Positions 2,352 to 33,332 of a stretch of DNA of 41,827 bases are shown in pieces. Below the pieces are notes generated by a model, which was not told the origin of the DNA, made no database searches, and saw only the letters and a program-made list of their open reading frames with translations. The position numbers were made by a program, and so were the translations under genes. How positions within the stretch are numbered: the first letter of the stretch is position 1; each line of letters opens with the position of its first letter. Source of the DNA: Saprospiraceae bacterium (lineage in GTDB: Bacteria; Bacteroidota; Bacteroidia; Chitinophagales; Saprospiraceae); contig JAHDDR010000011.1 in NCBI GenBank assembly GCA_020629255.1, positions 1 to 41,827 on the forward strand, in the 5' to 3' direction.

Positions 2352-5300
2352 ATGAGAGTTATTTTTACAATTCTTTTATTTTTCTTTTATTTTAATTCTA
2401 TTGTTATTGCTCAAGCACCCTTTGTTACTATTTGGCAATCGGATGCGGCAGAATTGTCTTCAACAAATGATCAAATTACATTTCCCGGAATAGGAAACTA
2501 TAATATTGCATGGGAAATGGTAGGGAATCCTGGCATTAATGGTACGTTATCCGGTACAGGAACGACCACAGTTATTTTTCCTTATCCCGGAACCTACCGA
2601 TTGAGTGTAACGGGAGGCTTAGAACAATTTCGGTTACAAAATATTAATTTTACCGATAGGCAAGAAATAATGAGTATTGAAGCCTGGGGTGATATAGCTT
2701 GGACATCTATGACAGAAGCTTTTAAAGGAGCCGTAAATCTTACTTATGCTGCAACAGATGCACCAGATTTATCCAATGTTACTTCATTGTCTTCCATGTT
2801 TTACGATTGCCCATTATTTAATGGTAATTTGAATAACTGGAATACCTCCACAATTACGAATATGTCTCGCATGTTTTATGAAGCAGAATCCTTTAACGGA
2901 AATATTAGTTTGTGGGATGTTTCGAGTGTAAATAATATGTCTTATATGTTTTATAAGGCATATGCCTTTAACCAAGCAATAAGTTTTTGGGATGTATCTA
3001 ACGTACTCGACATGTCTTATATGTTCGCTAGTTATGCCGTTATTTATCCTATGGCTTTTAATCAGTATATAGGAGGATGGAATGTGTCTAATGTTACTGA
3101 CTTTACAAGCATGTTTCATTTCTGTATAGATTATAATCAGGATATGTCTAATTGGAATGTATCGAATGCTACAAGTTTGAACTGCATGTTTTATTCTGCC
3201 CATAGCTTTAATCAGGATATTAATAGCTGGAATGTGTCCAATACAACTGATTTTGGATATATGTTTTATGATGCAGAGGTGTTTAACCAACCTTTGGATC
3301 AGTGGAACACAATTAATGCATTAGATATGTACTATATGTTTGGTCATACAGATTTCTTTAATCAAGATATAGGATCTTGGAATGTATCTAGTGTACAAGA
3401 TATGACCGGTATGTTTTTCTTTTCTGATAGATTCAATCAGTCCCTTAATTCTTGGAACGTATCTAATGTCATGGATATGAATAAGATGTTTCGTAATGCA
3501 CAAACATTTAATCAACCCTTAGCCTCTTGGAATGTGTCTAATGTTACTGATATGAGTGAAATGTTTCGAGATGCTGATTTCTTTAATCAAGATATAGGAT
3601 CTTGGGATGTATCAAGTGTTACGGATATGGAATTTATGTTTTCCCTGGCATCAGCTTTTAACATGGATATAGGGAACTGGAATGTTTCAAACGTTACCAA
3701 TATGCGTTATATGTTCGAATTTGCATACAATTTTGATCAAGATATCAGTAATTGGAATGTTTCAAACGTTACCAATATGGAGCGGATGTTTTATGGTGCA
3801 GATATATTTAATCAGCCTATTGGTTCATGGGATGTGTCCAGTGTAATTACGATGTCCCAAATGTTTCGTTTTGCAGATTTGTTCAATCAGGATTTGAGCA
3901 ATTGGAATACGCCCAGCCTTACGGATATTGAAAGTATGTTTTATTATGCTGATAATTTTAATCAAAGTTTGGGTAATTGGGATATATCGAATGTTACAGT
4001 CATTGGAAATGTATTCAGTAATACAAGCATGTCTGTAAGCAATTATGATAATACCTTAATTGGATGGGCAAGCCAGAATGTTCAACCTAATATTTCAGTA
4101 TCAGCATCTGGGGTGGATTATTGCAATGGCGAAGCAGCAAGGCAAAGTCTCATTGATAATCATGGTTGGAATTTTTATTCTGATACTAAATTATGCCCTC
4201 CTATGGTAACAACTTGGCAAACGGATAATACTGGAACTTCTGGAAATAATCAAATCCTAATTCCTGCAACGGGATCTTCATATAATATTATTTATTCCAA
4301 AATAGGAAGCCCTTGGATAAGTGGAACGTCAAATGGTAATGGTCCTGGCCCTACTACACTAACTTTGCCAAGTGCAGGAACATATGAGATTAGTATTTCT
4401 GGCGATTTCCAAGCATTGGACTTTTTCAATAATAGTGGCGATCGGTTAAAAATCCTAAGCATTGAAGAGTGGGGTGCAACAGCTTGGTCATCTTTTTTCG
4501 CCGCTTTTTACAGATGCGAAAATTTGAACATCACCGCTACAGATGCCCCAAATTTCATGGGAGTAACAAGCTTGTTCGGAATGTTCGAAGAATGTACAAG
4601 TTTAAACGCCGATTTAAGCCATTGGGATGTGTCAACGATAACGAACATGTCAAGAATGTTTAAGAATGCTTCTTCTTTTAATCAGGATTTAGGTAATTGG
4701 AATGTGTCTAATGTAACCAATATGAGTTCGATGCTAGATCAGACATCTTTGTCATTAGAAAACTATGATAATACGATAATCGGATGGTCCAGTCAACCTG
4801 TTCAGCCTAATATAACCCTAGGTTCAAGTGGTTTGGAATATTGCGAAGCCAAACCCGAAAGGCAAGCGATGATCAATACTTCAAATTGGACATTTTCAGG
4901 AGATACTTACGCCTGTCCATTTACCGATATTTATGTAGACCATACAGCAACGGGTACCAATGATGGAACCTCTTGGACCAATGCATTCACCGATTTGCAG
5001 TCGGCCTTAGCTTTAGGGCAAGATCACCATATCCACATCGCAAAAGGAACCTACAAGCCAACATCGGGACTGGTTAGAGGAATAGCCTTCGAAATTGGTC
5101 ATCGAGTTCATCTATATGGAGGTTATCCCAATGGAGGAGGAACAAGAAATGTTTCAACCAACCTCACCAATTTGTCTGGAGAAATAGATGATATTGCTGG
5201 TTTTACGGGCAACTCCTACCATGTGGTTAAGGTTGCCGATGTTTTTGATGTGGTTCTGGATGGAATTATTGTGAGAGATGGAGCAGCAATTGATCCCGCT

Positions 5301-6332
5301 TCCTTTGGTCGTGCAAGAGGAGGGGGGCTTTATCTGAAAAATACAACCATCACTTTAAATGATGTTGAAGTAAAATGGAACAAGGCAATATATGGAGCGG
5401 GTCTATTTGCCACCTTGTCTCCGGAAGTGAGAATCATAAATTCTGAATTTAAAAAAAATACAGCCGATTATGGTTCGGCATTATACCACAGCAACGAAAC
5501 GAACATGTTCATCGAACATTCTAAAATTGTTGATAATACGTCGTTGAACCGTTGTGCGATAGAAATCAATAATTCATTATACACAAAAATCGAAAACAGT
5601 ATTATCGCAGACAACGCATCAACGAATGCGAATGCGATAGCCTTCATTGCTACAAATCGAGATCAATCTTGTGATATTACCAATACAACCATTGTTGGGG
5701 AAAGCAAGAATAAAAATTTAATTACGATTCAAATCGGTTACAACGATCAAATGGATTTGACGATGAATAACTCCATCGTTGCTCATCAAACAGCATCTTT
5801 TGATAAGAATGTAAAAGCTTTCAATAATGGAGTCTTGAATTTTAATCACAACCATTGTTATTTCCAAGGAACTACAGTTATCGGAAATGGAACGAATACT
5901 TTGTTTTCCGATATGGATGGTGGGTTACAATTAAATTCCGATTACTCGGTAGCGGATTGTTCGCCAGTGGTAGACGCCGGAAATAATTCTTTGGGTGTAG
6001 GTGCGACGGACTATTTCGGGAACCCTCGATATTACAACACCATAGACATCGGTGCTTACGAAGCCCAAGCCGTTTGTAAAACATTTGCCAAAGAAAATAC
6101 GAGAGAGGAAGAAGGTTCTTTCTCCATATATCCCAATCCTACTTCAGGTAAAATTTTCATTCAAACAACACTAGAAAATCCAAGCATCATCATCACCAAT
6201 ATGCTGGGGCGAGAATTAATTTTTACGCAAGAAATGGAAGTGGATTTGAGCCATTTGTCCAAGGGTTTGTATTGGGTGCGTGTATTTGAAAATGGATCAT
6301 TGCATGGTGTCCAAAAAATGATAAAAAATTAA
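2352..6332 (+). CDS. Giant DUF285 (BspA-like repeat) surface protein with beta-helix-like domain and T9SS C-terminal sorting tail, copy 1
   Basis: Signal peptide; about 16 repeats of W(N/D)VSNVTDMSxMFxxAxxFNQDIx; second module; YVDHTATGTNDGTSWTNAFTDLQSAL... beta-helix-like region; FSIYPNPTSGKIFIQTT...KGLYWVRVFENG tail. Confidence 0.93.
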   Translation: MRVIFTILLFFFYFNSIVIAQAPFVTIWQSDAAELSSTNDQITFPGIGNYNIAWEMVGNPGINGTLSGTGTTTVIFPYPGTYRLSVTGGLEQFRLQNINFTDRQEIMSIEAWGDIAWTSMTEAFKGAVNLTYAATDAPDLSNVTSLSSMFYDCPLFNGNLNNWNTSTITNMSRMFYEAESFNGNISLWDVSSVNNMSYMFYKAYAFNQAISFWDVSNVLDMSYMFASYAVIYPMAFNQYIGGWNVSNVTDFTSMFHFCIDYNQDMSNWNVSNATSLNCMFYSAHSFNQDINSWNVSNTTDFGYMFYDAEVFNQPLDQWNTINALDMYYMFGHTDFFNQDIGSWNVSSVQDMTGMFFFSDRFNQSLNSWNVSNVMDMNKMFRNAQTFNQPLASWNVSNVTDMSEMFRDADFFNQDIGSWDVSSVTDMEFMFSLASAFNMDIGNWNVSNVTNMRYMFEFAYNFDQDISNWNVSNVTNMERMFYGADIFNQPIGSWDVSSVITMSQMFRFADLFNQDLSNWNTPSLTDIESMFYYADNFNQSLGNWDISNVTVIGNVFSNTSMSVSNYDNTLIGWASQNVQPNISVSASGVDYCNGEAARQSLIDNHGWNFYSDTKLCPPMVTTWQTDNTGTSGNNQILIPATGSSYNIIYSKIGSPWISGTSNGNGPGPTTLTLPSAGTYEISISGDFQALDFFNNSGDRLKILSIEEWGATAWSSFFAAFYRCENLNITATDAPNFMGVTSLFGMFEECTSLNADLSHWDVSTITNMSRMFKNASSFNQDLGNWNVSNVTNMSSMLDQTSLSLENYDNTIIGWSSQPVQPNITLGSSGLEYCEAKPERQAMINTSNWTFSGDTYACPFTDIYVDHTATGTNDGTSWTNAFTDLQSALALGQDHHIHIAKGTYKPTSGLVRGIAFEIGHRVHLYGGYPNGGGTRNVSTNLTNLSGEIDDIAGFTGNSYHVVKVADVFDVVLDGIIVRDGAAIDPASFGRARGGGLYLKNTTITLNDVEVKWNKAIYGAGLFATLSPEVRIINSEFKKNTADYGSALYHSNETNMFIEHSKIVDNTSLNRCAIEINNSLYTKIENSIIADNASTNANAIAFIATNRDQSCDITNTTIVGESKNKNLITIQIGYNDQMDLTMNNSIVAHQTASFDKNVKAFNNGVLNFNHNHCYFQGTTVIGNGTNTLFSDMDGGLQLNSDYSVADCSPVVDAGNNSLGVGATDYFGNPRYYNTIDIGAYEAQAVCKTFAKENTREEEGSFSIYPNPTSGKIFIQTTLENPSIIITNMLGRELIFTQEMEVDLSHLSKGLYWVRVFENGSLHGVQKMIKN
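2838..4040 (+). repeat. DUF285 array, about 16 units of 25 aa (75 bp), copy 1
   Basis: Manual parsing of the translation into 25-residue units from NWNTSTITNMSRMF to NWDISNVTVIGNVF. One unit carries a 5-aa insertion (ASYAVIYPMAFNQ). Confidence 0.9.
4616..6120 (+). repeat. Long direct repeat, copy A (inside DUF285 copy 1)
   Basis: Matches 9001-10505 at a constant offset of 4385 bp. Translations are identical and all nucleotide lines compared were identical. Bounded by mismatches at 4615/9000 side and at 6121/10506. Confidence 0.88.
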
Positions 6333-6352
6333 TTAAATTCATGATGAAATCT

Positions 6353-6402
6353 AGAGGCCATCTCAAAGAGGCATTTTCCAAAAACACTTTGAGACGGCTT
6401 CT
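6353..6402 (+). terminator. Long inverted repeat, probable transcription terminator or attenuating hairpin after DUF285 copy 1
   Basis: agaggccatctcaaag / ctttgagacggcttct arms (16 bp, one mismatch and one G-U) around an 18-nt loop, 20 bp after the stop codon. No strong T-tract. Confidence 0.5.
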
Positions 6403-6619
6403 AATCCATTGTAAAAGACCTTCTGGAATTTCTTGCCCTAAGTAGTGAATTCCTTTTATTCACTCAATTCTTGTATTCATAAGGAATTTCCATTTATACA
6501 TCAGAATAACACTTTCATCAAGTATTATAGGGGTGTCATATATTATGTAGGGATGAATAGAATTCTCTTGATTATATTTGTCCTCGCACTTAAGATATGT
6601 TTTTAAAATGTTTTCCATC

Positions 6620-9600
6620 ATGAAAGAAATTTTTACTTCAATTATTTTAGCCCTATTGTTTATCAATGTCTCGTTTTCACAGGCCCCCTTTGTTACCACT
6701 TGGCAAGTTGCAGATACCAATATAAAATTTCCGGGCATAGGAGATTACCAAATTGATTGGGCAGAAGTCGGAAATCCATGGAATTCAGGCACTAAAATGT
6801 CTTCGGGTTATCCTACAACATATGTTGATTTCCCTTCTCCGGGGACATATGAAATCAGTGTAACAGGAAATTTGGAGCAAATGCAATTCCAAAATATCAG
6901 CACCAGTGAACGAGAAGAATTTAAGAGTATAGATGCATGGGGAGACATTGCTTGGGTTTCTATGGAAAATGCTTTTGAGGGCTGTAGCCATATGGAATAT
7001 AATGCATCCGATGCCCCGGATTTATCAAATATTACCTCTTTGTCCTATATGTTTGCCAATTGTGAACTCCTGAATGGAAACCTGAACAATTGGAATACAT
7101 CCACCATTACAGACATGTCATATATGTTTTTAGGTACGGACGTTTTCAATGGAGCTATAGATCAATGGGATGTCTCCAATGTGATGAATATGTCCAACAT
7201 GTTTAATAGAGCAGGAATGTTCAATCAACCCATAGGTTTTTGGGATGTATCTAGTGTTACCGATATGTCTTATATGTTTGGATCGGCATTTGAGTTCAAC
7301 CAACCACTGGGTTTCTGGAATACAGCTCAGGTGACCAACATGTCCAATATGTTTCGCGCTAGTATTACATTTAATCAGTTCATAGGAAATTGGGATGTTT
7401 CGAATGTTACGGACTTTTCCCAAATGTTCAATGCTTGTTCATTATACAATCAAGACATGTTGAATTGGAATGTTTCTAGTGGAGCCGACTTCTCTTATAT
7501 GTTTTATGATTGTACGAATTTTAATGGTGATATATCCAGTTGGAACCCTTCCAGTGCAACAACTTTTCATCATATGTTTCATAGTGCTATTAACTTCAAT
7601 CAAAATATCAATAATTGGAATGTATCGAGTGTAACGGATTTCAGTTATATGTTTCGGTTTGCCGATTTGTTTGACCAACCTCTTAATCTTTGGAATACCT
7701 CTAGTGCAACCACCATGAAGAACATGTTCGAATATGCACTAAATTTTAATCAGGACATCAATAGCTGGAATGTTTCCAACGTAGGAGACATGAGCAATAT
7801 GTTGGAAGGAGCGTATGTGTTTAATCAATCACTTAATGCTTGGGATGTTTCTAGTGTTACAACGATGAGCTATATGTTCTTCGGCGCTAGGGAGTTTAAT
7901 GGTGACATTACAACTTGGAATGTTTCTAACGTAACAGATATGTCTAATCTGTTTCATTTTGCCTTGATGTTTGACCAAGATATTGGTGCTTGGGATGTTT
8001 CTAACGTAACTGACATGACAAATATGTTTCAAGAGGCTTATACGTTTAATCAGGATATCAGTACTTGGGATGTTTCAAACGTGACATTAATGACCGGCAT
8101 GTTCGAAAAAACAAAACAATTTAATCAGGATATTAGTACTTGGAGTATTTCCAATGTTACCAGCTTGAGTGCTATGTTCCGAGATGCAGAAGCTTTTAAT
8201 CAAGATATTAGTGCATGGGATGTCTCAAACGTGATGTATATGTCTTCTATTTTTTATGGCACATGGGTCTTCAATCAGGATTTGAGTAATTGGAATACGG
8301 CAAGTCTTGAGAGTATGGCATATATACTTTATGAAGCTCAGGCCTTTGATCAGAGTTTGGCGGCTTGGGATATTTCGAATGTAACAAATATCAATTATGC
8401 TTTTTATTATTCTAATTTATCTATTAATAATTATGATAATACCATTATTAGCTGGGCTAACCAAAATGTAAATAACAATTTGACATTGCGCGCAAACGGT
8501 TTGAATTATTGTAATTCTGAAACAGCTAGGCAAAGTTTGGAGAACGATCACAATTGGGAATTTATTGGAGATTCTAAGGACTGCCCACCATTTGTTACGA
8601 CTTGGAAAACGGATAATCTAGGAGCGACCAATGATAATCAGATTTTATTACCAGCCACAGGAACCTCAATATATGATATCAGTTGGACGAATGTTAATAG
8701 CCCTTGGATAAATGGAACATTTACAGGTAGTGGAGCTACAGTTTTTACTTTCCCTTCTCCTGGTACATATCAATTAACCATAGATGGAGAATATGGAGGT
8801 TTGGATTTTTATAATAATAGTGGAGATCGACTCAAAATTTTGAGTGTGGATGAATGGGGTGGTGTGACTTGGACAGATTTTACTGCCGCTTTTTATAGAT
8901 GCGAAAACTTGAACATCACTGCAACAGATGCACCGAACCTAGTAGCAGTGACAAACCTCTTTGGCCTGTTCGAAGAATGTACAAGTTTAAACGCCGATCT
9001 AAGCCATTGGGATGTGTCAACGATAACGAACATGTCAAGAATGTTTAAGAATGCTTCTTCTTTTAATCAGGATTTAGGTAATTGGAATGTGTCTAATGTA
9101 ACCAATATGAGTTCGATGCTAGATCAGACATCTTTGTCATTAGAAAACTATGATAATACGATAATCGGATGGTCCAGTCAACCTGTTCAGCCTAATATAA
9201 CCCTAGGTTCAAGTGGTTTGGAATATTGCGAAGCCAAACCCGAAAGGCAAGCGATGATCAATACTTCAAATTGGACATTTTCAGGAGATACTTACGCCTG
9301 TCCATTTACCGATATTTATGTAGACCATACAGCAACGGGTACCAATGATGGAACCTCTTGGACCAATGCATTCACCGATTTGCAGTCGGCCTTAGCTTTA
9401 GGGCAAGATCACCATATCCACATCGCAAAAGGAACCTACAAGCCAACATCGGGACTGGTTAGAGGAATAGCCTTCGAAATTGGTCATCGAGTTCATCTAT
9501 ATGGAGGTTATCCCAATGGAGGAGGAACAAGAAATGTTTCAACCAACCTCACCAATTTGTCTGGAGAAATAGATGATATTGCTGGTTTTACGGGCAACTC

Positions 9601-10717
9601 CTACCATGTGGTTAAGGTTGCCGATGTTTTTGATGTGGTTCTGGATGGAATTATTGTGAGAGATGGAGCAGCAATTGATCCCGCTTCCTTTGGTCGTGCA
9701 AGAGGAGGGGGGCTTTATCTGAAAAATACAACCATCACTTTAAATGATGTTGAAGTAAAATGGAACAAGGCAATATATGGAGCGGGTCTATTTGCCACCT
9801 TGTCTCCGGAAGTGAGAATCATAAATTCTGAATTTAAAAAAAATACAGCCGATTATGGTTCGGCATTATACCACAGCAACGAAACGAACATGTTCATCGA
9901 ACATTCTAAAATTGTTGATAATACGTCGTTGAACCGTTGTGCGATAGAAATCAATAATTCATTATACACAAAAATCGAAAACAGTATTATCGCAGACAAC
10001 GCATCAACGAATGCGAATGCGATAGCCTTCATTGCTACAAATCGAGATCAATCTTGTGATATTACCAATACAACCATTGTTGGGGAAAGCAAGAATAAAA
10101 ATTTAATTACGATTCAAATCGGTTACAACGATCAAATGGATTTGACGATGAATAACTCCATCGTTGCTCATCAAACAGCATCTTTTGATAAGAATGTAAA
10201 AGCTTTCAATAATGGAGTCTTGAATTTTAATCACAACCATTGTTATTTCCAAGGAACTACAGTTATCGGAAATGGAACGAATACTTTGTTTTCCGATATG
10301 GATGGTGGGTTACAATTAAATTCCGATTACTCGGTAGCGGATTGTTCGCCAGTGGTAGACGCCGGAAATAATTCTTTGGGTGTAGGTGCGACGGACTATT
10401 TCGGGAACCCTCGATATTACAACACCATAGACATCGGTGCTTACGAAGCCCAAGCCGTTTGTAAAACATTTGCCAAAGAAAATACGAGAGAGGAAGAAGG
10501 TTCTTGTTCCATTTATCCCAATCCAACCAACGGTAGGGTATATGTCGAGACTACTTTAGAAAATCCAAGCATCATTATAACCGATATGTTAGGGCGAGAA
10601 TTAATTTCTACACAAGAAATGGAAATAAATATTCACCATTTACCTAAGGGGGTATATTTGGTTTATTTTTTTGAAAATGGAAATAACATGGGGGTGTCGA
10701 AATTAGTAAAAGAGTGA
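6620..10717 (+). CDS. Giant DUF285 surface protein with beta-helix-like domain and T9SS tail, copy 2
   Basis: Same architecture as copy 1. The track ORF starts at 6578, but the signal peptide begins at internal Met 6620 (MKEIFTSIILALLFINVSFSQAPF). Tail CSIYPNPTNGRVYVETT... Confidence 0.92.
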   Translation: MKEIFTSIILALLFINVSFSQAPFVTTWQVADTNIKFPGIGDYQIDWAEVGNPWNSGTKMSSGYPTTYVDFPSPGTYEISVTGNLEQMQFQNISTSEREEFKSIDAWGDIAWVSMENAFEGCSHMEYNASDAPDLSNITSLSYMFANCELLNGNLNNWNTSTITDMSYMFLGTDVFNGAIDQWDVSNVMNMSNMFNRAGMFNQPIGFWDVSSVTDMSYMFGSAFEFNQPLGFWNTAQVTNMSNMFRASITFNQFIGNWDVSNVTDFSQMFNACSLYNQDMLNWNVSSGADFSYMFYDCTNFNGDISSWNPSSATTFHHMFHSAINFNQNINNWNVSSVTDFSYMFRFADLFDQPLNLWNTSSATTMKNMFEYALNFNQDINSWNVSNVGDMSNMLEGAYVFNQSLNAWDVSSVTTMSYMFFGAREFNGDITTWNVSNVTDMSNLFHFALMFDQDIGAWDVSNVTDMTNMFQEAYTFNQDISTWDVSNVTLMTGMFEKTKQFNQDISTWSISNVTSLSAMFRDAEAFNQDISAWDVSNVMYMSSIFYGTWVFNQDLSNWNTASLESMAYILYEAQAFDQSLAAWDISNVTNINYAFYYSNLSINNYDNTIISWANQNVNNNLTLRANGLNYCNSETARQSLENDHNWEFIGDSKDCPPFVTTWKTDNLGATNDNQILLPATGTSIYDISWTNVNSPWINGTFTGSGATVFTFPSPGTYQLTIDGEYGGLDFYNNSGDRLKILSVDEWGGVTWTDFTAAFYRCENLNITATDAPNLVAVTNLFGLFEECTSLNADLSHWDVSTITNMSRMFKNASSFNQDLGNWNVSNVTNMSSMLDQTSLSLENYDNTIIGWSSQPVQPNITLGSSGLEYCEAKPERQAMINTSNWTFSGDTYACPFTDIYVDHTATGTNDGTSWTNAFTDLQSALALGQDHHIHIAKGTYKPTSGLVRGIAFEIGHRVHLYGGYPNGGGTRNVSTNLTNLSGEIDDIAGFTGNSYHVVKVADVFDVVLDGIIVRDGAAIDPASFGRARGGGLYLKNTTITLNDVEVKWNKAIYGAGLFATLSPEVRIINSEFKKNTADYGSALYHSNETNMFIEHSKIVDNTSLNRCAIEINNSLYTKIENSIIADNASTNANAIAFIATNRDQSCDITNTTIVGESKNKNLITIQIGYNDQMDLTMNNSIVAHQTASFDKNVKAFNNGVLNFNHNHCYFQGTTVIGNGTNTLFSDMDGGLQLNSDYSVADCSPVVDAGNNSLGVGATDYFGNPRYYNTIDIGAYEAQAVCKTFAKENTREEEGSCSIYPNPTNGRVYVETTLENPSIIITDMLGRELISTQEMEINIHHLPKGVYLVYFFENGNNMGVSKLVKE
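7091..8440 (+). repeat. DUF285 array, about 18 units of 25 aa (75 bp), copy 2
   Basis: Manual parsing of the translation from NWNTSTITDMSYMF to AWDISNVTNINYAF. Confidence 0.9.
9001..10505 (+). repeat. Long direct repeat, copy B (inside DUF285 copy 2)
   Basis: See 4616-6120. Confidence 0.88.
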
Positions 10718-10844: not shown

Positions 10845-13800
10845 ATGAAAAAGTTAGTTGCTCTTTTTTTTACGATTACAATATTCACATCCTTATATTC
10901 ACAAGCTTTTGTTTCTACTTGGGTAACTGATCCTGGAACATCCATCAGTGAACAAATTCAAATTCCTGCTGAAGGTGGAGGGGTTTACAACATTAGCTGG
11001 GCAAAAATAAATGATCCAAGTATTACAGGTAACCAAACAGGGTCAGGGCCGACGACCATTGTTTTTCCTGATCCAGGCACATATGAAGTTAGCATTACTG
11101 GAGACTTGGAACGATTGAATTTCGATAATTCATCTTACAGTAACAAGCTTAAAATTTTATCCGTTCAAGCTTGGGGAGATATAGCTTGGACATCGATGGA
11201 GAATGCATTCAAAGGCTGTTCTAATTTGCAATATATTGGTGCGGATACTCCTGACTTATCCAATGTAACTTCAATGGCACATATGTTTGATGGTTGTAGA
11301 TTGTTGACTGGAGGAAATATGACAAATTGGAATACTTCTACGGTTACAGATATGGCTCATATGTTTTATGATTGTGAAGTATTTAATGCAAATCTTAGTA
11401 CTTGGGATGTTTCTAATGTAACAGATATGTCCTATATGTTTTATGATAATGAATTTTACAATCAAGAAATGGGCTTATGGGATGTTTCGAATGTGACAAA
11501 CATGTCCAATATGTTTTTCTTAGCCCAGTCCTTTAATCAGGATATACAATACTGGAATACAGGACAGGTAACGGATATGTCCAATATGTTTGCTTCTTAT
11601 TCATATCCTTATACTATGGCATTTAATCAATATTTACGAAACTGGGATGTCTCCAATGTCACCGATTTTAGCGGAATGTTCCGTTATGCCCGAAATTACG
11701 ACCAAGACATGTCGATATGGAATGTTTCTAGTGCCACAGATATGTCGTCTATGTTTGAGGGGGCTTATGCATTCAATCAAGATATCAGTTTATGGGATGT
11801 CTCTAATGTAACGGATATGTTCAGTATGTTCCATGATGCCAGTGTTTTTAATCAACCCTTAAGTTTTTGGAATACAAGTAATGTGACCAATATGGCTCAT
11901 ATGTTTGCAGGTGCACATGAATTCAATCAAGACATCGGCACTTGGGATGTATCTAATGTTGTCTATACGGCTTGGATGTTTGAAGATGCAAACGATTTTA
12001 ATCAGGATATTGGCAATTGGGACGTTTCCAATGTAGTGGATATGCAATATATGTTTTCGATAGCGAATAGCTTCAACCAAAATATAAACTCCTGGGATGT
12101 CTCCCTTGTAACGAATATGCATAGGATGTTTGAATTTGCATCAAGCTTTGACCAAAATTTAGGCAATTGGGATGTTTCCAATGTAACAGATATGCAGTCT
12201 ATGTTTGCGAAGGCTATAACTTTTAATGGGTTCATTGGATCTTGGAATACGAGCAATGTAACCAATATGGCTAATATGTTCGAATACGCTTATTTGTTCG
12301 ATAAAGGAATAGGAGCTTGGGATGTTTCCAATGTAACCTCGATGAGGCAGATGTTTTATAAAGCATATGATTTTAACAGATATCTAGGGAATTGGAATAC
12401 CTCCAATGTAACAGATATGTATTTCATGTTTAATAATGCTCAAAAATTTAACCAAGATATAAGCAGTTGGAATGTATCCAATGTAACAAACATGTGGAAT
12501 ATGTTTGGAGGAGCATTCGAATTTAATCAGAACTTAGGTAGTTGGGATATTTCAAATGTATCTATCATGTACGGCATTTTTATTAGTTCGAACATGTCTA
12601 TTACAAATTACGATAACACAATTATTGGTTGGGCGGCGAACCCCAATGCTCCAAACTTTTTGGACTTGAGTAATGGACTGGTCTATTGTAATTCAGAAGG
12701 GGCAAGACAAAGCTTGATGGATGATCATGGATGGGACTTTTTTGATGATATTAAAAACTGCCCTTCTATTAGGACATTATGGACAACAGATAATATTGGG
12801 ACATCCAATGATAATCAAATCATTTTGCCTATAACAGGAATAGGGGAAGTGACTTGGTCTCAATATATGAACCCTTCAGTGAATGGGACGCAAAATATAA
12901 ATGGCCCAACAACCATTACTTTTCCTAACCCAGGAACATATGAAGTCAGCATTTCGGGAAATTTTGGGCAATTGGACTTTTACAATCATGGAGATGATCG
13001 ATTAAAAATTGTCAGTGTATTAGAATGGGGCGTAACCGCTTGGCCATCGTTGGAAAATGTATTTTATCAATGTGAAAATTTGAATATTGATGCATCGGAT
13101 GCACCGAATTTTTTATTGGTTAATAGTCTCGCAGGAATGTTTGAAGGATGTACCAGCTTAAACACCGATTTAAGTCATTGGGATGTTTCAGGAATTGACA
13201 ATATGTCCCGAATGTTCAAAGGAGCAACGGCATTTAATCAAGATTTAAGCACGTGGAATATTAGTAATGTAACGAATATGGATCAAATGTTGGATCAAAC
13301 CAACCTGTCCGTTGAGAATTATGATAATACTTTAATTGGATGGAGGAATCAATCTGTTCAATCCAATGTGAATTTTGGAGCAGATGGCTTAAGTTATTGT
13401 AATGCAAAAATAGAACGATTATCTCTTATTGATACTTCTGGTTGGTTGATTACAGGAGATGGTTTTGCTTGTCCATTTACAGCAGCGTATGTCGATCATA
13501 CAGCTACGGGGGCTAATGATGGAACGTCTTGGGCAGATGCTTTTACCGATCTTCAGTCGGCCTTAGCCCTAGGAGGCGATCATCATATTTTTGTGGCCAA
13601 AGGAACCTATAAACCAACTACTGGAACACAAAGAGGTCAGTCTTTCGAATTAGCGAATAGAGTTTGGTTATTAGGAGGGTATCCCAATGGTGGAGGAGAA
13701 AGGGATGTTTCCGCTAATGAAACAAATCTGTCTGGTGAAATTGATGGTGTTTCAGGATATACGGGAAACTCTTATCATGTAGTAAAGGTGACAGATGCCA

Positions 13801-14900
13801 ATGAAGTTATAATAGATGGAGTGATTATAAGAGACGGAAGTGCAAATGACCCATCTTCTTTTGGCCGGTCAAGAGGGGGAGGACTATATTTGAAAAATGC
13901 AACGGTTACACTGAACGATGTAATAGTCAGATGGAATAGGGCCATTTATGGAGCAGGCTTGTTTGCCACCTTATCTCCCGAGGTTATTATTCAAAATTCT
14001 ATGTTCAATAAAAACAAAGCCGACTATGGAGCAGCATTGTATCATAGTAATGAAACAAATATGTATATCTATCACTCTAAGATAATAGATAATGAGGCTT
14101 GGGAACGTTGTGCCATAGAAATCAATAACTCTTTATATACAAAGATTGAAAATTCCTTGATTGCGAATAATGCATCCTTAAACGCCAATGCGATTGCATT
14201 CATTGCAACAAACCGGGATCAAAGTTGTGATATTACAAATGCCACTATTTTAGGCGAAACAAAAAATAAAAACTTAGTTACCATCCAAGTTGGATATGGA
14301 GATCAAATGGATTTGAACATTAATAATTCAATCGTTGCACATCAGAATTTATCTTTTGATAAGAATGTAAAAGCATTTAATAACGGTGTACTCAATTTTA
14401 ATCATGTCAATTGTTATTTTCAAGGATCAACTGTAATAGGGAACGGAACGAATACGATGTTTTCTGACATAGATGGAGATTTATTATTAAATGCAGATTA
14501 TTCTGTACATGCTTGTTCACCTGTAGTTAATGAAGGGAACAATCTTTTAGCAGCAGGAACGCAAGGTGGTATGGACCTCGCAGGGAATGATAGATTTTAT
14601 AGTACAGTAGATATCGGTGCTTACGAGGCACAAGCATTATGCAAAACTTTTTCTAGAGAAAATACGAGAGAGGAAGAAGGTTCTTTCTCCATTTATCCCA
14701 ACCCGACCAACGGGAAAATTTTCATTCAAACAACACTAGAAAATCCAAGCATCATTATTACTGATATGCTCAGACGGGAATTAATTTCTACGCAAGAAAA
14801 AGAAACCGATATTAGTCATTTACCTAAAGGGGTATACCTAATTCATGTGCTAAATAATAAAGGTGTGGAAGTTGATGTTCAGAAAATAATCAAGGAATAA
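10845..14900 (+). CDS. Giant DUF285 surface protein with beta-helix-like domain and T9SS tail, copy 3
   Basis: Signal peptide MKKLVALFFTITIFTSLYSQ; about 17 DUF285 units; YVDHTATGANDGTSWADAFTDLQSAL; tail FSIYPNPTNGKIFIQTT...KGVYLIHVLNNKG. Confidence 0.93.
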   Translation: MKKLVALFFTITIFTSLYSQAFVSTWVTDPGTSISEQIQIPAEGGGVYNISWAKINDPSITGNQTGSGPTTIVFPDPGTYEVSITGDLERLNFDNSSYSNKLKILSVQAWGDIAWTSMENAFKGCSNLQYIGADTPDLSNVTSMAHMFDGCRLLTGGNMTNWNTSTVTDMAHMFYDCEVFNANLSTWDVSNVTDMSYMFYDNEFYNQEMGLWDVSNVTNMSNMFFLAQSFNQDIQYWNTGQVTDMSNMFASYSYPYTMAFNQYLRNWDVSNVTDFSGMFRYARNYDQDMSIWNVSSATDMSSMFEGAYAFNQDISLWDVSNVTDMFSMFHDASVFNQPLSFWNTSNVTNMAHMFAGAHEFNQDIGTWDVSNVVYTAWMFEDANDFNQDIGNWDVSNVVDMQYMFSIANSFNQNINSWDVSLVTNMHRMFEFASSFDQNLGNWDVSNVTDMQSMFAKAITFNGFIGSWNTSNVTNMANMFEYAYLFDKGIGAWDVSNVTSMRQMFYKAYDFNRYLGNWNTSNVTDMYFMFNNAQKFNQDISSWNVSNVTNMWNMFGGAFEFNQNLGSWDISNVSIMYGIFISSNMSITNYDNTIIGWAANPNAPNFLDLSNGLVYCNSEGARQSLMDDHGWDFFDDIKNCPSIRTLWTTDNIGTSNDNQIILPITGIGEVTWSQYMNPSVNGTQNINGPTTITFPNPGTYEVSISGNFGQLDFYNHGDDRLKIVSVLEWGVTAWPSLENVFYQCENLNIDASDAPNFLLVNSLAGMFEGCTSLNTDLSHWDVSGIDNMSRMFKGATAFNQDLSTWNISNVTNMDQMLDQTNLSVENYDNTLIGWRNQSVQSNVNFGADGLSYCNAKIERLSLIDTSGWLITGDGFACPFTAAYVDHTATGANDGTSWADAFTDLQSALALGGDHHIFVAKGTYKPTTGTQRGQSFELANRVWLLGGYPNGGGERDVSANETNLSGEIDGVSGYTGNSYHVVKVTDANEVIIDGVIIRDGSANDPSSFGRSRGGGLYLKNATVTLNDVIVRWNRAIYGAGLFATLSPEVIIQNSMFNKNKADYGAALYHSNETNMYIYHSKIIDNEAWERCAIEINNSLYTKIENSLIANNASLNANAIAFIATNRDQSCDITNATILGETKNKNLVTIQVGYGDQMDLNINNSIVAHQNLSFDKNVKAFNNGVLNFNHVNCYFQGSTVIGNGTNTMFSDIDGDLLLNADYSVHACSPVVNEGNNLLAAGTQGGMDLAGNDRFYSTVDIGAYEAQALCKTFSRENTREEEGSFSIYPNPTNGKIFIQTTLENPSIIITDMLRRELISTQEKETDISHLPKGVYLIHVLNNKGVEVDVQKIIKE
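11328..12615 (+). repeat. DUF285 array, about 17 units of 25 aa (75 bp), copy 3
   Basis: Manual parsing from NWNTSTVTDMAHMF to SWDISNVSIMYGIF. Unit 4 has the same 5-aa insertion type as copy 1 (ASYSYPYTMAFNQ). Confidence 0.9.
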
Positions 14901-17270: not shown

Positions 17271-18185
17271 ATGTCGGTTCAAATTACAAATTTGACGAAA
17301 GAATATGGAACAAGAAAGGCTTTGGATGGTATTTCGTTCGAAGCCCAAAGTGGGCAAGTGACCGGTTTTTTGGGCCCCAATGGTGCCGGAAAAACGACCA
17401 CGATGAAAATACTCTCTTGTTTCATCCAACAAGATGGAGGTGAAGCGGAGGTCTGTGGTTTCAACACCCGAAAAAACCCCGAACAAGTCAAAAAAAGTAT
17501 TGGATATTTGCCCGAGCATAATCCTTTATATAAGGATATGTATGTGAAAGAATACTTACGATTTGTTGCGGGGATGTATAACTTGTCCAACAAATCAGGG
17601 AAGGTGGCAGATATGATTGAGATGACCGGTTTGGGGCGGGAACAGAATAAAAAAATCGGAGCTTTGTCCAAAGGATATAGACAAAGGGTTGGCTTGGCTC
17701 AAGCCTTGATCCACGATCCCGAAGTTTTGATTTTAGATGAACCTACTTCCGGTCTCGACCCGAACCAATTAGCCGACATTCGGAATTTGATCATCAATTT
17801 AGGAAAAGAAAAGACGGTGATTTTAAGTACCCACATTATGCAAGAAGTAGAGGCGGTTTGTGATAAAGTGGTCATTATTAATGAAGGGAACATTGTGGCC
17901 AACGGTAGTTTAACAGATTTGAAGGAACGAGCTACCGGAAAAGGTATACATATAACAGTAGGTTTTGGTGATGATGTTCCATTTGATGAAAAATTTAATA
18001 AAGAGGGAGTGACATCCATTAAAAAAGGACAAGCACTGAACGAATGGATTGTTACGACCCATTCCGATATTGATGTAAGACCTGATATTTTTAATTTTGC
18101 CGTAGAGCAAAAAATTACCTTGTTAGAACTGTCTAGGAAAACCTACGAAGTAGAAGATGTTTTCCGATTATTAACGAATGATTAA
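17271..18185 (+). CDS. gldA: Gliding motility-type ABC transporter ATP-binding protein
   Basis: Walker A GPNGAGKTT, signature SKGYRQRVGLAQAL, Walker B VLILDEPTSGLDP; followed by GldF- and GldG-like genes. Confidence 0.88.
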   Translation: MSVQITNLTKEYGTRKALDGISFEAQSGQVTGFLGPNGAGKTTTMKILSCFIQQDGGEAEVCGFNTRKNPEQVKKSIGYLPEHNPLYKDMYVKEYLRFVAGMYNLSNKSGKVADMIEMTGLGREQNKKIGALSKGYRQRVGLAQALIHDPEVLILDEPTSGLDPNQLADIRNLIINLGKEKTVILSTHIMQEVEAVCDKVVIINEGNIVANGSLTDLKERATGKGIHITVGFGDDVPFDEKFNKEGVTSIKKGQALNEWIVTTHSDIDVRPDIFNFAVEQKITLLELSRKTYEVEDVFRLLTND

Positions 18186-18189
18186 ATGT

Positions 18190-18843
18190 ATGAAACATAT
18201 TTATCTTTTATTTTTTTTATGGATGCTTCCTTTTACGTTATTGGCTCAAGATAAATTGAATAATGCATTTCGATTTACCAATGGGATTTATCAAAATTAT
18301 GAAGAATTCAAAAAAAATAAACCGTCTATTTTTTGGAATGACGTCACCTCCGATTTAATTGTGATGGAACCGATCCATAAAGCGAAAATGGGGAATTTAA
18401 AATGGGAGGAAAAAGAATCATCCATTGCATTAGAAAATATTTGGGGTTTCTGCGTAAATGGAATTCCCTATATAAAAGTAGATGATGGAAAAGAATCGGA
18501 ATGGAAAAGTTTTGCGGGAATGCAATTAAGAGGAAAAATCTGTTATTATGAATTTGAATTTACAGAAAAAGAAGAAGTGGAAGTTTCGGCTTATAACCCA
18601 TTAACCAAAAAACCATTCAGAACCGGAAAAGTAGTACAGGAAAAAATAATTCCAAAAAAGATAATGATGGATTTCCAAACCGGAAAAACAGAAATATATA
18701 CACTGGAGAAAGTGAAAGAATGGATTGCGTCCGATGAGGAATTGTTGAAAACATTCGAAACAACCGAAGAAATAAAACGAAGGGAAAAATTATTTAAATT
18801 CCTTCAAATATTTAATGATCGAAATCCGATACAAATTAATTAG
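18190..18843 (+). CDS. Uncharacterised secreted protein within the gld cluster
   Basis: Signal peptide MKHIYLLFFLWMLPFTLLAQ. The track ORF from 18178 overlaps the gldA stop; internal Met at 18190 is an alternative start. No family recognised. Confidence 0.8.
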   Translation: MKHIYLLFFLWMLPFTLLAQDKLNNAFRFTNGIYQNYEEFKKNKPSIFWNDVTSDLIVMEPIHKAKMGNLKWEEKESSIALENIWGFCVNGIPYIKVDDGKESEWKSFAGMQLRGKICYYEFEFTEKEEVEVSAYNPLTKKPFRTGKVVQEKIIPKKIMMDFQTGKTEIYTLEKVKEWIASDEELLKTFETTEEIKRREKLFKFLQIFNDRNPIQIN

Positions 18844-18852
18844 GAGTATATT

Positions 18853-19581
18853 ATGGTAGAAATACTCAAAAAAGAATTGAATATGTTTTTTAGCTCCTTG
18901 ACAGCCTATATTGTTATCGGAGCTTTTCTTGTCGTGATGGGTTTGTTCATGTGGGTCTTTCCGGATTATTCTGTATTGGAATATTGTTATGCCACACTCG
19001 AACAATTGTTCCAAATGTCTCCTTGGATTTTTGTCTTTTTAATTCCAGCAATTACAATGCGTTCTCTAGCAGAAGAAAAACAAACCGGAACCATCGAATT
19101 CTTAATTACAAAACCCGTAAAATTAATGCACATTATTTTCGGGAAATATTTGGCGGCAGTCCTATTAATTATTTTTGCTTTGTTACCCACCCTCATTTAT
19201 TTTTATACCGTTTATGAGTTGGGATCACCCAAGGGGAATTTAGACTCAGGAGCAGTTTGGGGTTCTTATTTAGGATTAATTTTATTGGGAGCATCTTATG
19301 CCTCAATAGGCTTGTTTGCTTCCTCGTTAACGAACAATCAAATTGTTGCTTTTATGTTGGCGGCTTTTTTATGTTTCTTTTTTCATTGGGGATTTTTCTA
19401 TTTGAGCAAATTGCCTGTTTTCTTAGGAGCAACAGATAATTTTATTCAAATGCTAGGAATAGATTATCATTATAATTCGATAAGTAGAGGCGTAATAGAT
19501 TCGAGGGATGTAATTTATTTTTTGAGTTTTATCGGTTTTTTTCTAGGGCTCACATTTTTGAAATTAAAGGCACGTAAATAA
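18853..19581 (+). CDS. gldF: Gliding motility ABC transporter permease GldF-like
   Basis: ABC-2-type permease: EILKKELNMFFSSLTAYIVIGAFL, SLAEEKQTGTIEFLITKPV, multiple TM helices. Confidence 0.9.
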   Translation: MVEILKKELNMFFSSLTAYIVIGAFLVVMGLFMWVFPDYSVLEYCYATLEQLFQMSPWIFVFLIPAITMRSLAEEKQTGTIEFLITKPVKLMHIIFGKYLAAVLLIIFALLPTLIYFYTVYELGSPKGNLDSGAVWGSYLGLILLGASYASIGLFASSLTNNQIVAFMLAAFLCFFFHWGFFYLSKLPVFLGATDNFIQMLGIDYHYNSISRGVIDSRDVIYFLSFIGFFLGLTFLKLKARK

Positions 19582-19602
19582 ATTAAATTTTTATTCTTTT
19601 TT

Positions 19603-21276
19603 ATGGATATAAAATACATCATCGGATTAATAGTAGGAGTAATTTCCATTAATTTTTTAGGGCAACAATTTTATACCACCATTGATTTGACAGAGGATCA
19701 AAGATATACTTTGTCGGCTCCCATTTCTGATATGTTGAATCATTTGGAAAATGATGTGACCATTCGAGTTTTCCTAACCGCCGATTTTTTACCCGCCGAT
19801 TATAAATTATTTAAAAAAAGTATTTCCGAAAAATTAGACGATTTTGAAAACGAATCATCAAGAATAAATTATTTTTTCGAAGACCCCAATAAAGGAGATA
19901 TAGAAACCATCCGACAAAGAGGAATGGCATTGCGTAAAATGGGTGTGAATCCGGTGCGGGTAGGAAAAGACCAACAAGGAAAAGATGTGTATGTTTTTCC
20001 GGCCGCTGTTTTTGAAGGAAAAGATACCGTTGTCGTGAATTTAATGGATAATGATATTCCAGGAGCAGATGAAAAAACAGTCATCACAAATTCCATTGGA
20101 TTATTGGAATATAATTTAGCCAAAGGCGTACAGATGGCATCTGGAAAAATAGGCGGTGTTGTTGCCTTTACCGAAGGACGGGGAGAACTTTCGGCAGGCG
20201 AAATATCCGATTTGGATCGGAGCTTGCGTCAAAGTGGTTATGCCGTGGGTCGACTCCCCTGGGATAACATCGAAGTCTTTGACCCTAAAATAGATGTAGT
20301 GGTCATAGCCAAACCCCAAAAAACATTTTCCGAAAAAGATAAATTTATTTTGGATCAATACATCATGCAAGGCGGTAAAGTAATATGGTTGATTGATCGC
20401 CTAACGGCGAGCTTGGATTCCATGATGCAACGCCAAGTATATACACCTTATGATTATCCCTTAGGAATCGAAGACCAATTGTTTAAATATGGCTTTCGAA
20501 TCCAACCCAATATTATTATGGATATGGAATGTACCCAAATTAAATTAGTGGATGGTACGATGGGTAATGCAGCACAAATGAATGTGTACCCCTGGTATTT
20601 TCATCCGGCGGTGAGACCTTTTTCCGACAATCCCATTGTTAAAAATCTGGATCGGGTGAATTTGCGTTTTGCCAGTGTCATTGATACGATTGCCACAAAA
20701 AAAACACAAACACAAAAAACAATTTTATTACAGACCTCCGATAAATCCATGTTGAAATTTTCTCCCGTAGAATTAAATTTTGAAATATTACGGGTAGAAC
20801 CCGATCCACAATATTTTAATAAAGGCAATTTACCCGTCGCCGTTTTATCCGAAGGAGAATTTACTTCGGCTTTTGAATACACAGCTACAAGCGAAATGAA
20901 ATCCTTAATGGAAAAAAGAAATATGGAAGTCATGACGCGATCCGTCCCAACAAAAATGTTGGTAGTCGGAGATGGAGACATTGCCCGAAATGATTTTGAT
21001 CCCGCCACAGGTAATATACGTTCCCTGGGTTTTGACAGAGTATCCGGATATACTTTTGCCAATAAAGAATTCCTGATGAATGCCATAGAATATATGTTGG
21101 ATGATGGCGGTATCATCCAATCCAAAAATCGGGAAGTAAAACTAAATCTTTTGGATTGTACTCGAGCCAAAGCAGAAAAATCCTATTGGCAATTCTTAAA
21201 TATTATACTGCCACTTTTATTCCTCGCTGGCTTTGGTGCCTTGTATTATTTTATTCGGAAAAGGAGGTTCGGATAA
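19603..21276 (+). CDS. gldG: Gliding motility ABC transporter auxiliary component GldG-like
   Basis: N-terminal TM; YTTIDLTEDQRYTLSAPISDMLNHLENDVTIRVFLT; QGGKVIWLIDRL; C-terminal TM with RKRR. Confidence 0.9.
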   Translation: MDIKYIIGLIVGVISINFLGQQFYTTIDLTEDQRYTLSAPISDMLNHLENDVTIRVFLTADFLPADYKLFKKSISEKLDDFENESSRINYFFEDPNKGDIETIRQRGMALRKMGVNPVRVGKDQQGKDVYVFPAAVFEGKDTVVVNLMDNDIPGADEKTVITNSIGLLEYNLAKGVQMASGKIGGVVAFTEGRGELSAGEISDLDRSLRQSGYAVGRLPWDNIEVFDPKIDVVVIAKPQKTFSEKDKFILDQYIMQGGKVIWLIDRLTASLDSMMQRQVYTPYDYPLGIEDQLFKYGFRIQPNIIMDMECTQIKLVDGTMGNAAQMNVYPWYFHPAVRPFSDNPIVKNLDRVNLRFASVIDTIATKKTQTQKTILLQTSDKSMLKFSPVELNFEILRVEPDPQYFNKGNLPVAVLSEGEFTSAFEYTATSEMKSLMEKRNMEVMTRSVPTKMLVVGDGDIARNDFDPATGNIRSLGFDRVSGYTFANKEFLMNAIEYMLDDGGIIQSKNREVKLNLLDCTRAKAEKSYWQFLNIILPLLFLAGFGALYYFIRKRRFG

Positions 21277-21285
21277 AAGGTGTAA

Positions 21286-21425
21286 TCAAAAATTACCGCC
21301 CTCCAATATTCGAATAAAATCTTTGATTTCATTAATTCTATTGTTGAAGTATGTAATGATAAGGAACAAACCCAATAAAATGGATGAAATAATAAATCCA
21401 ATCGTTTTCCACCACGGTTTCCTTA
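21286..21425 (-). pseudogene. Orphan C-terminal fragment of a membrane protein abutting the IS remnant
   Basis: Minus-strand reading in one frame: ...IKFKIRKPWWKTIGFIISSILLGLFLIITYFNNRINEIKDFIRILEGGNF*. A TM helix plus tail with no start codon, adjacent to the transposase end. Confidence 0.55.
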
Positions 21426-22067
21426 TTTTGAATTTGATTTTCGTACTGCGAGCAGATTTATCTGCTCAAGTTCTTTGTAATAATCTTCTATTTCATAATC
21501 TGTGTAGGCACTATCGGCAAAGAGTTCACTACCTGGAGGCAAATCGATATTCATGCTTTTGAAAGCTGTGATGTCGTGATATGATCCCGCACAGATGAAG
21601 TACTCCACAGGAATACCTTCAGCAGTGGTTATGACCTGAACTTTGAAACCATAGAAGTATTCGCGTTTGGAAGTGTTTTTACCCCTATATGCTTCATGAT
21701 CAAGTAGTTTGCATCTGGGAATACGGATGTTCTTACATACCGCCACAGGAAAAGAATCGATAAGGTATTGACTTTCCGTATTCAATTCCTTCAAGGTCTG
21801 ACCCAGTGTGAAAAACAGATTTGAAATAGAGGGGGCAAGCCGGTGTAGGTGTCGGTTGTAATTGGATTTATGCGGAAATTCAAAACCATGTACTTCCTTA
21901 AGGTACAACCTGCTTTTTGCATAATTACCACTAAAATACCTTGCAGCAACAAGGGCTGTGGTTATTATTTGCGCATCGCTCAACTTGCGTCTGCCACCCT
22001 CTTTTGAGTGGCATATTTTGAAATAATCGTCAACAAAACAGTAAATTGCAATCGTGAAGTCTTCCAT
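21423..22067 (-). pseudogene. Truncated IS982-family-like transposase (214 aa)
   Basis: SDAQIITTALVAARYFSGNYAKSRLYLKE, LIDSFPVAVCKNIRIPR, YFYGFKVQVITTAEGIPVEYF, ELFADSAYTDYEIED, LLAVRKSNSK*. Ends abruptly where the family normally continues. Confidence 0.75.
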
Positions 22068-23703: not shown

Positions 23704-24480
23704 TTATTTATGATCTTTTATTTTGCTCTTCCCCTTGGCTTTTTCAGCTTTGTCCAAACCTTTCGCTTTGGCCTTTTCGGCTTTGTCCAAGCCTTTTTTG
23801 CTCGCTTTTTCGGCTTGCTCTATCTTCTTCTTGATCTTATCATCAGCATTTTTCTTGATTTCTTCCGCTTTTTTCATATTCCCTTTAGGATCTTTTATGT
23901 CACGGATTTCATCTTTCCCTTTGGTAGAACCTTCTAATGTAGGTCTTGTATCTGGTTTGCCTTCCAATTGTTTAACACCACCTTTTACAGGTTTGCCATC
24001 TAGAGTAGGCCTTGTATCCGGCTTGCCCTCTAATTGCTTCACATCTCCTCCATTCACTGGTTTACCATCTAATGTAGGTCTTGTATCTGGTTTGCCTTCC
24101 AATTGTTTGCCCTTGCCTTTACCCGGTTTAGGCGTATTTTTAATGGTGGCCAATTCCGCCTTTTGAGTATTCATTTTGGTTTCGAAAGCAGCAATTTGAG
24201 CTTCTTTCTTAGCAATTACATCGGCAGGAAGCGTACCATTTTTCTTGTGTTCGGCCAATTTGGCTTTTGCCTTCTGGATTTTCTTATCCATAGCGCTTAC
24301 CTTATTGTCTAAGCTTACAGCTTTGCCATATGCACTCTTAGGAGCTTTTTCCTCATTTTGCTTAATGGTTTCTACTGTTTTTGTAGTCTTGACAAGTTCG
24401 GTGCCAACACCTCCTTGTGCCATTATAGTTGTGCTTGTAAAGAAAAACAAAGCACAAAGAATCAATAATTTCGTTTTCAT
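23704..24480 (-). CDS. Secreted Lys/Ala-rich coiled-coil protein with three internal repeats
   Basis: Signal peptide MKTKLLILCALFFFTSTTIMAQ; 3x QLEGKPDTRPTL(D/E)G; C-terminal KGLDKAEKAKAKGLDKAEKAKGK. Confidence 0.82.
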   Translation of the reverse strand: MKTKLLILCALFFFTSTTIMAQGGVGTELVKTTKTVETIKQNEEKAPKSAYGKAVSLDNKVSAMDKKIQKAKAKLAEHKKNGTLPADVIAKKEAQIAAFETKMNTQKAELATIKNTPKPGKGKGKQLEGKPDTRPTLDGKPVNGGDVKQLEGKPDTRPTLDGKPVKGGVKQLEGKPDTRPTLEGSTKGKDEIRDIKDPKGNMKKAEEIKKNADDKIKKKIEQAEKASKKGLDKAEKAKAKGLDKAEKAKGKSKIKDHK

Positions 24481-32402: not shown

Positions 32403-33332
32403 ATGGAAAGTTTTGAAAGTCCGGGCGAAGAAGAAAATAAAAAGAAAAGTGCTATTATCACAAGTGTGGTTTCTGCCTTGCTTTTTATCTTGTTGTTTTT
32501 GCCCATCGTCTCTTCTGTAACCGAAATAGATCGGGAAGAAGGTATTCTTATCGCATTGGGACGTCTTGAAGCTACCACCTCGTCCGGTCCGAACTCTTCT
32601 CCGGAACCTTCTTCCAGTGAAGCAGAAAGCTCTAGCGAGGCTGAAAGCTCCGAAGCGGAATCATCATCATCATCATCTTCTTCTTCTTCTTCTTCTTCTT
32701 CTTCTTCTTCTTCTTCTTCTGATAAGAAGGTAGAACCTAAAGATGACAAGAAGAGTGTGAAAGTGGATGAGGATAAAAAGGAAGAATCCAGGAAAAAAGA
32801 AGATAAAAAGGAATCGGAGGAAGCTAAGAAAAAAGCAGAAGCCGAAAAGAAAAAAGCCGCTGAGGCGGAAGCAAAAAGAAAAGCAGAAGAGGCAAAAAAA
32901 GCCGCCGAAGAAGAGAAAAAACGAAAGGAAAAAGAATTAGCGGATAAGAAAAAACAATTCAGCGATTTCCTTGGAGGAGGAGATGGAGATGATTCCGCTT
33001 CGCAAGGAGACACCGAAGGAGATCCGGATGCCAAAAACCTAGAAGGAATGACCACAGGTACAGGAAATATTGGTGGAGGTTTGTCGGACAGGGGAGTACT
33101 CGAACGGCCCACCATCAAGGATGAAACACAAAAGACCGGAAAAGTGGTGGTGAAAGTATGCGTGAACAGTGCAGGGGAAGTCGTTTCATCAAAATTCACC
33201 CAATCCAATTCAACAACCAATGATCCTCATTTAATAAAACTTGCCGAAAAGGGAGCCAAGGATTATGTGTTCAAGAAAGGAGAATTGGATAAGCAATGTG
33301 GTACCATCACTTTCGATTTTGATGTGAAATAA
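32403..33332 (+). CDS. TonB-like energy transducer with Ser/Glu and Lys/Ala-rich periplasmic linker
   Basis: N-terminal TM (SAIITSVVSALLFILLFLPIV); long poly-Ser and KKAEAEKKKAAEAEAKRKAEEAKK linker; C-terminal GKVVVKVCVNSAGEVVSSKFTQSNSTTNDPHLIKLAEKGAKDYVF. Follows exbB and exbD. Confidence 0.82.
   Translation: MESFESPGEEENKKKSAIITSVVSALLFILLFLPIVSSVTEIDREEGILIALGRLEATTSSGPNSSPEPSSSEAESSSEAESSEAESSSSSSSSSSSSSSSSSSSSDKKVEPKDDKKSVKVDEDKKEESRKKEDKKESEEAKKKAEAEKKKAAEAEAKRKAEEAKKAAEEEKKRKEKELADKKKQFSDFLGGGDGDDSASQGDTEGDPDAKNLEGMTTGTGNIGGGLSDRGVLERPTIKDETQKTGKVVVKVCVNSAGEVVSSKFTQSNSTTNDPHLIKLAEKGAKDYVFKKGELDKQCGTITFDFDVK
32661..32717 (+). repeat. Trinucleotide microsatellite (TCA)5(TCT)14 encoding poly-Ser
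   Basis: Counted directly: TCA x5 at 32661-32675 and TCT x14 at 32676-32717, in frame. Confidence 0.93.

Follow-up and report, generated by a model that had tools for sequence, protein, structure and literature searches.

Probable recent recombination between tandem genes behind a 1.5-kb near-identical tract in PARCEL-array surface proteins of a Saprospiraceae bacterium

Two neighbouring genes of an uncultured Saprospiraceae bacterium carry the same 1.5 kb of sequence in the midst of otherwise strongly diverged coding regions. This raises two questions: how did the shared tract arise, and how far can its seemingly perfect identity be trusted? The window analysed here (41,827 nucleotides) is the whole contig C102 of an assembly with 271 contigs, 4.38 Mb and 89% completeness. 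It contains three tandem genes:

2352 to 6332, plus strand: gene 1, 1,326 aa, open reading frame with matches to PF03382, PF18962, TIGR02167, TIGR04183 and NF041518
6578 to 10717, plus strand: gene 2, 1,379 aa as listed from a TTG start, open reading frame with profile matches
10845 to 14900, plus strand: gene 3, 1,351 aa, architecture as in genes 1 and 2

The true start of gene 2 is likely an ATG a few codons inside the listed TTG. Gene 1 encodes, in this order, a signal peptide-like start, a PARCEL/DUF285 array, a second short PARCEL module, a predicted beta-helix domain and, at the end, a T9SS tail; gene 2 has the same architecture, but its array and tail differ. The layout is common to all three genes (1,326-1,379 codons): PARCEL/DUF285 array, a second PARCEL head of a few units, predicted beta-helix, T9SS type A tail. 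The tandem 25-residue repeats score above the curated cut-offs for PARCEL (PF03382, 575-800 bits; TIGR02167, 177-216 bits), as do the C-terminal regions for the T9SS type A sorting domain (TIGR04183, 35-39 bits with a cut-off of 23; PF18962, 39-42 bits with a cut-off of 27). The predicted model of the candidate beta-helix domain consists of regular short strands (pLDDT 73, pTM 0.70), and its best PDB matches are beta-helix proteins, e. g. 1ru4 with an E-value of 2e-5, but at TM-scores below 0.5. The domain of short strands is predicted to be a right-handed parallel beta-helix. Genes 1 to 3 are genes for surface proteins with a PARCEL/DUF285 array, a predicted beta-helix and a T9SS tail. The unit of beta-helix and T9SS tail occurs in at least 37 copies in the genome, mostly on non-PARCEL proteins with varied N-terminal parts; judged by their sequences, these copies make up a large domain-shuffling family.

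Alignment of genes 1 and 2 at a constant offset of 4385 bp gives the following features:

4615 to 6120, plus strand: tract copy in gene 1, 1,506 bp exact, seen in the alignment at offset 4385 and as a step in dS
9000 to 10505, plus strand: tract copy in gene 2, 1,506 bp exact, seen in the alignment at offset 4385
4582 to 4614, plus strand: extension of the tract at its 5' edge, 32 identical bases plus one silent mismatch
6121 to 8999, plus strand: unique loop between the tract copies, comprising the gene 1 tail, the spacer and the N-terminal part of gene 2

The 1,506 bp are the longest exact run at this offset in the window, where the next-longest exact repeat measures only 42 bp. The original prediction had placed the tract at 4616-6120 and 9001-10505; its offset and ends hold, and its start is one base late. 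The base before the tract (4614) is a silent Leu difference, TTA/CTA, preceded by 32 identical bases (4582-4613). If this extension is counted, the tract is 1,539 bp long with one mismatch. The tract starts within the penultimate PARCEL unit (4581-4652), with the extension at the start of that unit, and ends two codons short of the T9SS tail domain (about 6126). The reading frames of both genes are intact through the junctions. Dense mismatches flank the tract at either end. The step-like edges that had been expected are found on one side: at the 3' end identity falls cleanly from 100% to 65% at 6121, whereas the 5' side is graded, with identity at 82-85% for about 120 bp, next at 62-65% and finally at background level.

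Synonymous divergence was calculated by NG86 on the codon alignment, in which the tract covers 501 codons and 330 synonymous sites. Between genes 1 and 2, dS is 1.49 before the tract, 0 inside (0/330 synonymous sites differ) and 1.48 in the tail; a dS of about 1.5 is near saturation and says only that the flanks are old. The N-terminal heads of the two genes are 62% identical. Gene 3 lies outside the homogenised tract and is diverged throughout: its homologous domain is 70-73% identical at the nucleotide level, with a pS of 0.74 to genes 1 and 2. The comparison of dS along the three genes, proposed with the original prediction, thus bears out that arrays and tails of genes 1 and 2 differ and that the third copy is clearly diverged. 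A step-like drop in synonymous divergence between diverged flanks, the mark of gene conversion, is present with a sharp 3' edge and a graded 5' edge.

Is such a tract unusual in this genome? A within-genome comparison covering the stretches with paralogues and their neighbouring genes included 37 distinct beta-helix domains (703 pairwise comparisons, one pair being a single gene entered twice). A long shared tract was found only in the adjacent genes 1 and 2. The next exact run in the 703 comparisons was 61 bp, which excludes chance as the origin of the 1,506-bp run. A 1,467-bp run on contig C121 (L048) was rejected as a second tract pair, since here one gene had been compared with itself. Likewise, a dispersed "palindromic repeat" of about 100 bp from the exact-match scan turned out to be runs of 100 N. 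No third copy with more than 72% identity over the tract was found in the 89%-complete assembly; hence no third locus was donor to the two genes, unless it is absent from this assembly. Only about 4 partial domains are cut by contig ends, no excess over a rough expectation for 271 contigs, so nothing suggests that identical tracts lie hidden in large number. Two paralogues located on separate contigs have about 107 bp with one mismatch in common in their tail regions (L035:360-466, L053:620-726), possibly another short conversion as far as sequence comparison can tell.

No close relative was found among 61 genomes or in a further scan of genome contigs; the best congener matches were 68-70% identical. 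Immediately upstream of the PARCEL cluster (441-2224) lie a histidine kinase and a LytTR response regulator, a pair which is kept in congeners without the cluster. Downstream (17271-21276) follows an operon for an ABC transporter and an auxiliary protein (PF09822), whose gene order is kept across congeners and which we take to resemble the gliding-motility gldA/F/G set. In congeners the two loci sit apart from each other, and no PARCEL cluster was found beside the kinase-regulator pair (three congeners) or the ABC operon (five). The data thus hold no outgroup for the direction of conversion. Elsewhere in the window there are three imperfect tandem repeats of 66-69 bp (23929-24129) in a minus-strand open reading frame (23704-24480), a short repeat with a 3-bp period (32676-32720) within another (32403-33332), neither frame having a Pfam match, and a partial DDE transposase (21423-22067; PF13612, PF01609). 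No second copy of the 3.3 kb around the transposase was found in the assembly.

How much the perfect identity is worth depends on how the assembly was made. Artefact had been named as a point to check together with the original prediction, and the contigs make this caveat concrete. Seven exact 55-bp matches in contigs of this genome end precisely at contig ends or at gaps of 100 N, and gaps of 10 N are present as well. By default, SPAdes finishes with a k-mer of 55, and it leaves gaps of such sizes. Matches of 55 bp in these positions are characteristic of a k=55 de Bruijn graph, so the assembly was very probably made in this way from short reads. An overlap of exactly 55 bp links contigs C66 (L035:1-55) and C206 (L053:1-55); the C206 junction appears to fuse a PARCEL head to the middle of a beta-helix and is probably an assembly misjoin. 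Every one of the 1,452 55-mers that recur in the window falls within the tract, at a single offset, so that the tract forms one graph path with two entries and two exits. Very probably it is this single path written twice, and the identity was not independently observed for each copy.

A possible interpretation is therefore that the assembler, walking one k=55 path in the order upstream part, tract, loop, tract, downstream part, created the second copy or its perfect identity. Only this walk uses every piece, which would explain how a repeat exceeding the span of a read pair could be written out. Sequenced fragments in metagenomes are shorter than 1,000 bp. Compared with the isolate mode, metaSPAdes is more aggressive in merging bulges into a consensus, and it resolves repeats using strain contigs built before the collapse (PMC8021871). 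Copies differing at scattered sites would thus emerge identical. No 16S rRNA gene was found in the assembly either, which is common in short-read metagenome bins and no proof. Furthermore, immunity to collapse is limited to the 110 bp that lie no more than 55 bp from a tract edge, and one mismatch is found there. On the other hand, the loop path is unique, and reading both of its junctions requires two copies in some molecule; both genes are also intact and in frame across the junctions. In a simple simulation with assumed bulge-length limits, complete collapse had a chance of 13-33% when the copies differed by 1%, of no more than 8% when they differed by 2% and of less than 2% when they differed by 3%. 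Isolated differences of up to about 1-2% could thus have been collapsed, and a divergence of 3% or more could hardly be hidden. Simulation and edge bases together indicate that the copies are alike within about 1-2%. The perfect identity claimed at the outset is exact in the assembly over 1,506 bp, but with collapse at k=55 possible it is not established as a measured fact; it would be sound if the assembly was made from hybrid data with long reads. What stands firm is the drop from a dS of about 1.5 to near zero, and for this reason we consider an assembler's creation unlikely.

The remaining explanations take the tract as real. A recent segmental duplication of the whole 4.4-kb gene unit, with both flanks replaced afterwards by recombination with other paralogues, would account for the tandem order and the constant 4385-bp offset, and arrays and tails do look shuffled across the family. 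Yet the tandem genes are older than the tract: on either side of it, genes 1 and 2 are long-diverged paralogues (dS about 1.5), and gene 3 is laid out in the same way. A duplication and two replacements would be needed instead of one conversion. The duplication is very unlikely, and of the two origins originally offered, conversion or segmental duplication, the first is favoured. That purifying selection or a nucleotide-level constraint holds the domain identical would fit its conservation across the family. However, genes 1 and 2 differ at none of 330 synonymous sites while gene 3 and the copy on contig C66 diverge without restraint, either at silent sites or overall. Selection acting on the protein or the RNA is insufficient for this pattern, and the synonymous divergence of gene 3 already refutes it; its probability is negligible. 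Recombination is the only ordinary explanation, as had been suggested.

Hence we think it probable that recent homologous recombination between genes 1 and 2, either a non-reciprocal conversion or an unequal exchange to the same effect, made the tract; one conversion event between neighbours explains the data best, with the fewest steps. Both genes are tandem paralogues of old standing and encode secreted surface proteins. A recent recombination would have copied about 1.5 kb from gene 1 into gene 2 or the reverse. The copied piece would span the final two PARCEL units together with the predicted beta-helix domain and the linker, halting just before the T9SS tail, and the N-terminal arrays and tails would have retained their old divergence. 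RecA-type recombination, being the usual bacterial route, is presumably the agent. Against conversion stands the fact that genes diverged by about 30% recombine poorly; for mycobacteria a limit of about 10-12% heterology has been cited (PMC1762029). Either the exchange was a rare one that set out from a short stretch of identity, or the core has been kept similar throughout by repeated conversion. Short patches that gene 1 has in common with gene 3 are found around the 3' edge:

6092 to 6127 (= 14657-14692), plus strand: patch of 36 identical bp in genes 1 and 3, spanning the 3' edge of the tract
6150 to 6190 (= 14715-14755), plus strand: T9SS-tail patch of 41 identical bp in genes 1 and 3

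Of the 36-bp patch, 29 bp are common to all three genes. The 41-bp patch is a probable short and older exchange between genes 1 and 3, and together with the 36-bp patch and the graded 5' flank it suggests smaller, earlier exchanges in the gene cluster. A donor direction derived from the 36-bp patch was not accepted, since it would depend on two or three sites only; either gene 1 or gene 2 may have been the donor. It is conceivable, though decidedly improbable, that repeated recombination keeps the core identical as a crossover platform for swapping or deleting variable N-terminal PARCEL arrays and T9SS tails between the tandem genes. This would then be a surface-variation system in a living population of free-living Saprospiraceae.

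We read the tract as the genuine trace of ordinary recombination among tandem genes for surface proteins, of a kind that is well known. Collapse as in metaSPAdes (PMC8021871) predicts one sequence for copies differing at scattered sites, but alone it cannot yield the fall of dS from about 1.5 to near zero. Perfect long repeats in metagenome-derived contigs should nevertheless be checked against the k-mer signature of the assembler before zero divergence is inferred. In tubercle bacilli, gene conversion between the neighbouring paralogous surface-protein genes PE_PGRS17 and PE_PGRS18 is documented (PMC1762029). As proposed for genes 1 and 2, homologous recombination has made adjacent surface-protein paralogues locally alike and left differences elsewhere. 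There, however, a short polymorphism in otherwise nearly identical genes was tested in hundreds of strains, whereas here a 1.5-kb tract lies in genes diverged by about 30% in a single assembly. PARCEL (DUF285/TIGR02167) proteins are known as surface proteins with tandem 25-residue repeats which spread within genomes by duplication (PMC2996958); the term "gene conversion" is absent from the main text of that study. Whereas they have been described mostly as lipoproteins of mollicutes and others, the proteins of genes 1 to 3 have the repeats joined to a predicted beta-helix and a T9SS tail. The locus adds one more case in which tandem surface-protein genes have become locally alike, here with PARCEL arrays joined to a predicted beta-helix and T9SS export.
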